Shown here piece by piece: positions 27,926 through 28,735 of a stretch of DNA of 64,000 nucleotides; the first letter of the stretch is position 1, and each line of letters opens with the position of its first letter. The DNA comes from an uncultured Aquimarina sp. GTDB lineage: Bacteria; Bacteroidota; Bacteroidia; Flavobacteriales; Flavobacteriaceae. Where the stretch lies: assembly GCA_947489685.1 (NCBI GenBank), contig CANLEM010000002.1:248001-312000 (forward strand), read 5' to 3'. Under the pieces are notes generated by a model. The model saw only the letters and a program-made list of their open reading frames with translations, was not told where the DNA came from and did not search any database. A program made the translations under genes and the position numbers.

Positions 27926-27968
27926 AGGACCCTGTTTTGAAAATTTCAAAACAGGGTCCTATTTTTTT
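27926..27968 (+). terminator. Terminator of groESL
   Basis: A 17-bp perfect stem (27926-27942 with 27944-27960) is followed by ATTTTTTTT. It is one of the strongest intrinsic terminators in the window. Confidence 0.95.
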
Positions 27969-28063
27969 TAGAAACTTACATCTAATGACAACATGAAATA
28001 TCTAGGAATCAAATTGCTTTGATATACTGTTATAGAAAACATTGACTTCTTTTCATACGTTTA

Positions 28064-28089
28064 TTCTTGAGATTTATAAATCTCAAGAA
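28064..28089. promoter_or_regulatory. Perfect 26-bp palindrome, copy 1
   Basis: TTCTTGAGATTTA is followed directly by its exact reverse complement. It ends 7 bp before the -33 TTG of the predicted peptide promoter, a place suited to a dimeric activator or a repressor. As RNA it would be loop-less and it has no U-tract, so a DNA operator is more likely than a terminator. Confidence 0.7.
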
Positions 28090-28096
28090 CCTTTTG

Positions 28097-28128
28097 TTGC
28101 AAATCAACTAGTGTTTCGACTAGCTTTA
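28097..28128 (+). promoter_or_regulatory. Predicted promoter of peptide gene 1
   Basis: TTG (28097-28099), 21 bp, TAGCTTTA (28121-28128), one mismatch from TAnnTTTG. The same arrangement is conserved in the second copy. Transcription would start about 20 bp before the ATG at 28154. Confidence 0.45.
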
Positions 28129-28153
28129 AACTTATAACTTAAATATTAAAATC

Positions 28154-28291
28154 ATGAAAACAAGCATTTTAAATTTAGAAGGGGTAAAAATCATTGAAAA
28201 AAAAGAGCAGCTTAAGGTAAATGGATCAGGATGTGGTTGTGGACCTGCTTTCACCATTCCGGGAACTTGCCTGTGTTTGATCTCAGTGTAA
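28154..28291 (+). CDS. Cys-rich leader peptide 1 (RiPP/bacteriocin-type precursor candidate)
   Basis: A 45-residue product. The leader starts MKTSILNLEGVKIIEKKEQ and ends VNGSG; the core is CGCGPAFTIPGTCLCLISV with cysteines at 27, 29, 39 and 41 (CxC-x9-CxC). The leader form (N-L-E-G-V-K, K-K-E-Q, then N-G-G-like) resembles the GG-type natural-product precursors of Bacteroidota that are cleaved by C39-peptidase ABC exporters. Here the second Gly is replaced by Ser-Gly. It has a promoter, palindrome and terminator of its own. No exporter or modifying enzyme is adjacent. A role as a secreted antibacterial or signal is inference. Confidence 0.75.
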   Translation: MKTSILNLEGVKIIEKKEQLKVNGSGCGCGPAFTIPGTCLCLISV

Positions 28292-28302
28292 TGCCAAAAT
28301 TC

Positions 28303-28350
28303 GTGCCTGCTATTCTATTTTTAGTATCGGTATAGCAGGCACATTTTTTT
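28303..28350 (+). terminator. Terminator of peptide gene 1
   Basis: Stem GTGCCTGCTAT (28303-28313) / ATAGCAGGCAC (28332-28342) is followed by a run of eight T after one A. It lies 11 bases after the stop codon, so each peptide is its own transcription unit. Confidence 0.9.
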
Positions 28351-28427
28351 TGACTAACTATTACAACCGTTCCATTTGATAGCTTTTTTTAGATAGATTC
28401 TTAAACTGTTTTAGGCTTGTAAGTTTA

Positions 28428-28453
28428 TTCTTGAGATTTATAAATCTCAAGAA
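28428..28453. promoter_or_regulatory. Perfect 26-bp palindrome, copy 2
   Basis: Identical in all 26 bases to the palindrome at 28064-28089 while the sequence around it has drifted. Conservation of the palindrome, including its symmetry, points to a selected binding site. Confidence 0.7.
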
Positions 28454-28460
28454 TCTTTTG

Positions 28461-28492
28461 TTGTAAAATAACTCGTGTTTCGAGTAGCTTTA
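28461..28492 (+). promoter_or_regulatory. Predicted promoter of peptide gene 2
   Basis: TTG (28461-28463), 21 bp, TAGCTTTA (28485-28492), the same elements and spacing as in copy 1, 7 bp after the palindrome. Confidence 0.45.
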
Positions 28493-28517
28493 AACCATAA
28501 CTTAAATATAAAAAATT

Positions 28518-28658
28518 ATGAAAACGAACATTTTAAATTTAGAAGGGGTTAAAGTAATCGAAAAAAAAGAGCAAATTTTTGTAAACGGAGGTGGCCAATG
28601 CTACTGCGGAGTTTTGGAAATGCCATTTTTCCATGACCGTTGTGATAGCTGTCTGTAA
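28518..28658 (+). CDS. Cys-rich leader peptide 2 (RiPP/bacteriocin-type precursor candidate)
   Basis: A 46-residue product. The leader MKTNILNLEGVKVIEKKEQ matches that of peptide 1 at 20 of the first 24 residues and ends in VNGGG, a proper double-glycine site. The core QCYCGVLEMPFFHDRCDSCL is unrelated to the first but again has four cysteines (28, 30, 42, 45; CxC-x11-CxxC). Conserved leader with variable core is the hallmark of ribosomal peptide precursors. Cysteine pairing could be disulphide or thioether; no modifying enzyme is encoded nearby. Function is not proven. Confidence 0.75.
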   Translation: MKTNILNLEGVKVIEKKEQIFVNGGGQCYCGVLEMPFFHDRCDSCL

Positions 28659-28677
28659 CGCCTAAAAAACAACTATA

Positions 28678-28735
28678 CCTGTTAGGTTAACCATAAACAG
28701 AAAACTTAACAGGTACAGTTTTATTTATTAAGAAA
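28678..28735 (+). terminator. Terminator of peptide gene 2 (weaker)
   Basis: ACCTGTTAGGTT (from 28678) can pair with AACTTAACAGGT (28713-28724) with one G-U wobble, followed by a short T-rich stretch. The stem is good but the loop is about 23 bases and the U-tract is broken. Confidence 0.55.

Follow-up and report, generated by a model that had tools for sequence, protein, structure and literature searches.

Two small tandem genes, A and B, lying downstream of groES-groL in an Aquimarina genome (labelled G000), are on balance best read as outputs of a dispersed regulon: they would encode Cys-rich secreted peptides with C39-type leaders, controlled by a TPR-TM-AraC regulator, here named PalR, which would sense the peptide encoded beside it, and they would be exported in trans. 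The palindrome ahead of both genes was shown by genome comparison to be a conserved element at a fixed promoter distance of many GG-leader peptide genes, and such a receptor-linked palindrome before peptide genes suggests a peptide-signalling circuit new for this bacterial group. The window referred to below is the whole 64-kb stretch that was analysed, C2:248001-312000 of G000 (Table 1).

The tandem unit and its two peptide genes

A preliminary description of the window had placed two small genes between groL and a RamB-like regulator gene, and ORFs of 45 and 46 codons were confirmed there directly. Its account of the products also held. The leaders of A and B are identical at 20 of the first 24 residues and end in VNGSG (A) and VNGGG (B), and the Cys residues lie at 27, 29, 39 and 41 in A (CxC-x9-CxC) and at 28, 30, 42 and 45 in B (CxC-x11-CxxC). 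Both 26-bp palindromes are perfect, as had been noticed, and are the only perfect ones of at least 20 bp within the window; the promoter-like pair ascribed to each gene was found as -33/-7-like elements at an identical offset 3' of both palindromes. The terminators ascribed to A and B proved weaker than claimed: inverted repeats (83%) are present 3' of both genes and are absent from a strict terminator scan, which called one terminator-like hairpin, a strong one 3' of groL, along with the two palindromes themselves. The duplicated unit comprises palindrome, promoter, 45/46-codon gene and imperfect hairpin; its copies are spaced 363-364 nt apart and are 91% identical over a 76-nt stretch and 83% over a 78-nt stretch. 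The neighbouring gene called RamB-like shows a likeness that is only distant (50.7 bits against a cut-off of 700). Its HTH_3 and IrrE-type domains scored above the Pfam cut-off, and the short-chain acyl-CoA regulator domain fell below it. Pfam and NCBIfam profile searches with peptides A and B gave no match, and a direct protein search with peptide A found only itself and P0002 (78% identical).

Table 1 Features of the tandem unit and of related loci in G000. Positions are those of the window unless a contig is named
Feature	Position	Strand	Remarks
Terminator-like hairpin 3' of groL	27926-27960		Strong; called in the strict scan
26-bp perfect palindrome ahead of peptide A, proposed PalR operator	28064-28089	.	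20-bp core 28067-28086
Peptide A promoter	28097-28128	+	TTG 28097-28099, TAGCTTTA 28121-28128; geometry common to peptide promoters
Peptide A gene	28154-28291	+	45 aa; leader residues 1-25, predicted core 26-45, 4 Cys
Imperfect inverted repeat then T run, probable terminator of A	28296-28349	+	Missing from the strict terminator scan
26-bp perfect palindrome ahead of peptide B, proposed PalR operator	28428-28453	.	20-bp core 28431-28450
Peptide B promoter	28461-28492	+	TTG 28461-28463, TAGCTTTA 28485-28492; geometry as in peptide A promoter
Peptide B gene	28518-28658	+	46 aa; leader residues 1-25, predicted core 26-46, 4 Cys
Imperfect inverted repeat 3' of B, possible terminator	28665-28726	+	Missing from the strict terminator scan
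palR, proposed regulator gene	C2:341097-342791		566 aa
Orphan C39 exporter gene	C4:360775-362976		HlyD-like partner
Bacteroidetocin-like loci (L178, L185, L186)	C1:586k, C1:197k, C3:771k		Short-leader peptides such as MKNLEVNKMENINGG

Translation of A and B is supported by the excess of synonymous over non-synonymous differences from Aquimarina sp. AU474 (16 synonymous and 1 non-synonymous in A, dN/dS 0.01; 14 and 8 in B, dN/dS 0.07), and judged from this comparison both are real genes. In AU474 (L094) both units likewise precede this RamB-like gene, and groL is found about 3.8 kb upstream of them. A single A-type gene lies behind groL in A. aggregata (L095) and G036 (L096), and a further isolate (L102) has a single A-type gene ahead of what by eye is apparently the same regulator gene. 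A 3'-end fragment of the RamB-like gene was seen by eye to be left behind the A-type peptide gene in G036 (L058:9020-9060) and A. aggregata. The preliminary description had named frameshifts in orthologues and an absence of homologous GG leaders as signs against its reading; no frameshift was found across the four compared loci, and homologous GG leaders exist in related genomes. The GG-type leader itself was borne out, and its family is large in the genus Aquimarina.

Two other early ideas did not hold as worded. Variable cores, an idea that was right only in part, had been taken as a diversifying trait, but between orthologues (against AU474) the cores of A and B are more conserved than their leaders, so that the cores are not diversifying here; in the A-type peptide of G036, two of the four Cys are lost. 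The pair had also been called orphan, and A and B belong instead to a dispersed set of palindrome-bearing genes. As for the description of the two cores as unrelated, a mosaic is the better reading. The core of B (CYCGVLEMPFF...) is similar to one that was found in 12 other Aquimarina genomes (CDCG..MPFF or MQFF, ...C..), and its promoter and leader match those of A, so B looks mosaic. The B-core peptide genes of the other genomes have no site directly upstream and are present also in genomes without PalR (G024, G033). At L059, L061, L062 and L064 these genes lie, in several congeners, near DUF4280 and Tle1-like genes, which hint at cargo of a type VI secretion system; PalR is encoded a few kb away.

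The leader search of G000 gave 12 matches at E <=10, A and B included, three of them at E <=0.001, and they form several clusters. At the GG-peptide clusters L013, L014, L016, L017 and L018 of this genome no palindromic site was found at up to three mismatches. One of them (L013:9006-11630; G000:C2:691-694 kb) holds three peptide genes with GG leaders and Cys-rich cores beside a C39-like/VKOR/thioredoxin-domain protein, and is a possible disulfide-forming peptide locus.

The palindromic site and the regulator PalR

The shared palindromic control that had been proposed for A and B was supported. G000 contains a third exact copy together with one copy carrying one mismatch and one carrying three; the reversed control pattern gave zero matches in the same genome. 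All 52 Aquimarina genomes were searched with the exact core TTGANATTTATAAATNTCAA, and all 44 sites, found in 22 of the genomes at one to five per genome, were inspected. Every one of them lies ahead of a gene. In 28 cases the distance from the site to the start codon of a GG-leader peptide gene is 61-98 bp (two of them count from an internal ATG at 62 in place of the first ATG at 20), and one more site is 282 bp ahead of such a gene. Twelve sites lie in the promoter of palR, one is 86 bp ahead of a C39 exporter gene in G041, and two are upstream of Big_2/FN3 lipoprotein genes in two species (L111:8202-10583; L118:259-2109). The Big_2/FN3 lipoprotein is an unexpected target for a peptide regulon. 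Tandem palindrome-peptide arrays like that of the window also occur in G001, G002, G004, G026 and G029.

Among the sites with one mismatch inspected in the 22 genomes, many were tied to peptide genes; others precede the gene of an M57-like DUF5648 protein (G044, with a homologue in G001) or, in G000, a TonB-dependent receptor gene. DUF5648 lipoproteins are encoded across the palindrome from PalR in G000 and behind a one-mismatch site in G044 (L110:8382-8966; L193:1762-2952). In genomes lacking PalR the one-mismatch sites lie inside ORFs (G003, G010, G040) or beside paralogous regulators (G050, G051), and in G009, where PalR is present, one such site is also inside an ORF. Outside Aquimarina the exact core was found in 2 of 197 genomes of the same family (L234, L235). 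In L235 it is separated by 63 bp from the GG-leader peptide gene that follows, behind a gene resembling, by eye, the 3' part of a PalR-type regulator; in L234 it has no such neighbour. Two other explanations of the palindrome were rejected. Chance was set aside on the count of matches in the genus at up to two mismatches, which was 59 for the forward pattern against 3 for the reversed control. An RNA element was set aside because the 13 Rfam matches at E <=1 were all far under the gathering scores and mostly to eukaryotic microRNA models (best E 0.011).

The promoters behind the sites share one layout, with offsets counted from the end of the 20-mer core. A -7-like TAnnTT element starts 33 or 34 nt after the site in all 28 peptide promoters, and 25 of the 28 have [TG]TG at offset 10. 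In 2000 shuffles at most 11 (TAnnTT) and 6 ([TG]TG) were reached; the promoters are akin, so that these figures express conservation and not independent draws. Both elements resemble the -33/-7 promoter of Bacteroidota, and a dimer-binding site immediately 5' of the -33 element would suit an activator rather than a repressor.

The 566-residue PalR has a hydrophobic N-terminus, a TPR domain, a hydrophobic segment near residues 384-409 and a C-terminal AraC-type HTH_18 domain at 480-562, and its AlphaFold model (mean pLDDT 87.4) shows the TPR part as a solenoid, along with a long helix and the HTH. In G000 the palindrome is 151 bp 5' of the palR start codon. When the 52 genomes were searched with PalR, 19 gave at least 566 bits, G028, G036 and G016 gave 412, 409 and 401, and the rest gave at most 337. 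With a cut of 400 bits for orthologues, chosen after the sites were known and with scores of 337 or less taken as paralogues, the genomes with a PalR orthologue are exactly the 22 that have an exact site. As 12 of the sites are those of palR, the sites away from palR were counted separately: they occur in 18 of the 22 PalR genomes (all except G009, G018, G032 and G037) against none of the 30 without PalR. On a tree of orphan-exporter DNA covering 41 of the 52 genomes, the presence of site and PalR needs nine changes, eight of them forced by well-supported branches. Site and regulator change jointly in 8 of 8 independent pairs (p 0.008). This result depends on the 400-bit cut, and, since one list of 22 genomes served for both traits, it repeats on independent branches that the two sets coincide. 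For sites away from palR the agreement is 6-7 of the 8, with none opposite. In G028 the PalR copy has an in-frame stop codon and the palindrome sites are retained (L176, L147), which either counts against the PalR reading or marks a recent loss.

In the circuit that we propose, PalR would bind to the palindrome as a dimer, next to the -33 element on its upstream side, and would activate transcription, that of its own gene included. That PalR binds the motif is, on the genomic pattern, very likely; that it acts as an activator is likely, if less firmly so. AraC-type regulators usually bind direct repeats, which is a point against PalR at a palindrome. For the paralogous regulators of G000 a search for cognate palindromes gave no clear one except a related core at C2:803442, several other matches being terminator-like. 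This too counts against the reading, as do the late choice of the 400-bit cut and the lack of a site at the G000 orphan exporter, at several GG-peptide clusters of G000 and directly ahead of the B-core genes elsewhere. Over about 300 residues the PalR TPR domain can be aligned with RapF-peptide and NprR-NprX, and equally with LGN and APPBP2; a profile search with this domain found RapF. To judge from these models, the fold fits peptide binding without proving it.

Peptide pairing, export and rival explanations

In the next step of the circuit, the TPR domain would sit outside the inner membrane and sense a secreted peptide; the likeliest ligand would be the small GG-leader peptide whose gene directly follows palR. 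The gene pairing bears on this step. It was scored with an HMM built from 11 training leaders adjoining ten regulators of G000, a peptide gene being accepted at up to 350 nt downstream on the same strand; the loci had mostly been gathered by regulator homology, and a few by peptide or palindrome. At the Aquimarina loci examined, a GG-leader peptide gene lies downstream of 37 of 39 distinct TPR-AraC regulators (41 rows, 39 of them paired, less L069 and L073, which are partial copies of regulators already counted), compared with 5 of 576 control ORFs. When G000, the source of the HMM training, was left out, 27 of 29 regulators were paired. The two unpaired regulators are L197 and L152, and at L152 a peptide of this type can be seen by eye; of the five control matches, L070 and L147 are fragments of PalR-type regulators, and L033 and L066 are a single gene entered twice. 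G000 itself has at least 16 regulators of PalR type, and all ten inspected are paired. Outside Aquimarina, 5 of 18 regulators are paired, and 5 of the 6 that score at least 209.5 bits. The regulator-adjacent peptides have GG-type leaders both by eye and by HMM, and of the 23 rows for peptides adjoining PalR orthologues, two of which are partial duplicates, 16 show a TKTxP motif. On this pairing, PalR may well sense the adjacent peptide, with the case for and against about evenly balanced.

The rival that survives best accepts control of A and B by PalR through the palindrome and has PalR sense something other than a peptide, such as envelope stress or a molecule of host or prey; the adjacent GG peptides would then be further outputs, and A and B bacteriocin-like effectors. 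TPR folds bind many ligands, and the palR-adjacent peptides of G032, G042, G043, G025 and G009 bear the palindrome themselves and so are also outputs. However, regulators and peptides are matched almost one to one, even among paralogues that lack the palindrome, which would be needless for a mere output, and we regard this rival as unlikely. It is a good deal less probable that the palindrome is bound by another factor, for example a LytTR protein whose gene lies across it in some genomes, with PalR as just one of the targets. A LytTR gene is divergent from palR across the palindrome in 10 genomes, but a close LytTR orthologue is missing in 12 of the 22 site genomes, G000 included, whereas PalR is found in 22 of 22; the palindrome is accordingly disfavoured as a LytTR site.

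With PalR and its adjacent peptide kept as the preferred reading, A, B and the other palindrome-bearing peptides would then be made, cut after residue 25 and exported in trans by a C39 exporter, most likely an orphan one with its HlyD partner. Service in trans had been suggested at the outset, and the gene content agrees: no exporter adjoins A and B, and an orphan C39 exporter of at least 83% identity is present in 41 of the 52 genomes, G000 included. A C39 search of G000 gave six matches above the cut-off, four of them in transporter-length frames. One of these four is the orphan exporter, for which no GG peptide was found within the 14 kb inspected; 40 of the 41 carrier genomes have it at 83-94% identity to the G000 copy, and all 22 PalR genomes carry one. 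The G041 orthologue carries the palindrome, and upstream of the G000 copy none was found (best match 6 mismatches). The other three transporter-length frames belong to loci that resemble the bacteroidetocin gene set (small TM protein, ResA-like protein, exporter) and have other peptides (Table 1); at L178, the sole locus of the three that was checked, the ResA-like protein scored below the cut-off. The orphan exporter is the natural candidate for A and B, which probably leave through it.

The outputs A and B would be disulfide-stabilised bacteriocin-like peptides, a role which they could as readily have as lack. They might instead be RiPP precursors, with cores modified by the products of genes at other loci and with an activity that depends on the modification. 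Some paralogous peptides of G000 touch lanthipeptide and rSAM-RiPP leader models below the cut-off. The Bacteroidota GG-leader models touched in this way are NCBIfam NF038153 (class I lanthipeptide leader), TIGR04149 and NF047798 (bacteriocin-like protein), and for NF038153 the best paralogous peptide reached 20.2 bits against a cut-off of 22. A and B, in contrast, match NF038153 not at all, match no lanthipeptide or rSAM-RiPP leader model and have no modification enzyme beside them, which makes this rival quite improbable, slightly more so than the LytTR one. The last rival, that the palindrome is a mobile or terminator-like repeat placed before peptide genes incidentally, can practically be dismissed: some mobile repeats are perfect palindromes, and both copies were labelled terminator-like in the strict scan, but the small number of exact copies per genome, their position before genes in all 44 cases, the fixed promoter offset and their retention at orthologous loci of other species argue against it.

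Relation to known peptide systems

The Blp/Pln/Com-type regulons of lactic acid bacteria unite a GG-leader pheromone, bacteriocins and a C39 exporter under one repeated operator, with a histidine kinase and a LytTR regulator acting on direct repeats. The circuit proposed here would instead pair a one-component TPR-TM-AraC protein with a palindromic operator. Bacteroidetocins, class IIf bacteriocins of Bacteroidales, are described in PMC6671954 as having a leader of 15-16 aa and a mature peptide of 42-48 aa, with genes for a TM protein, mostly a thiol oxidoreductase, and an exporter side by side. A and B are like them in being GG-leader peptides of Bacteroidota, with a putative C39-type exporter and with the four Cys of the best known members (PMC6671954). 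They differ in their leaders of 25 aa, which fall outside the leader length of the class, in their cores of 20 and 21 aa, and in that no set of exporter, TM protein and oxidoreductase adjoins them.

According to PMC10075063, RRNPP receptors are intracellular proteins of 250-500 aa with an N-terminal HTH, if any, and their propeptides are mostly exported by Sec. PalR shares with these systems of Firmicutes a TPR and HTH receptor gene adjoining the gene of a small secreted propeptide, putative in the case of PalR (PMC10075063). It differs in its length of 566 aa, its predicted TM segment, its C-terminal AraC HTH and the apparent GG-type leader of its peptide. From these comparisons A and B are not filed under bacteroidetocins nor PalR under RRNPP, and both may work alike.

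A search of open-licence PMC papers found no report of the regulator-peptide pairing or of the palindrome; the nearest report, in PMC10352776, is of TPR genes in two Bacteroidales RiPP clusters. Peptide quorum sensing has mainly been described in Firmicutes (PMC10075063), and no Bacteroidota peptide pheromone system of the PalR kind was found in the open-licence literature searched.

The motif, its receptor and the target genes come and go together over 52 genomes, which makes the circuit directly testable. The gene order also offers a search key: a TPR-TM-AraC gene followed by a peptide gene of the KKLSLxKIKIAKL...GG type would yield candidate ligand-receptor pairs and secreted peptides missed by family models. 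Tentatively, and with somewhat less confidence than we place in the reading of A and B themselves, we propose that Aquimarina and some related genera possess a family of peptide-pheromone systems, in which a membrane one-component receptor with external TPR domain, TM helix and AraC HTH is encoded beside its own GG-leader signal peptide. The PalR member would broadcast by a palindromic operator to unlinked peptide genes, to lipoprotein genes and, in one genome, to an exporter gene, with A and B among its targets. If this is true, the pheromone family would be a Gram-negative counterpart of the RRNPP systems and of the bacteriocin pheromone regulons.
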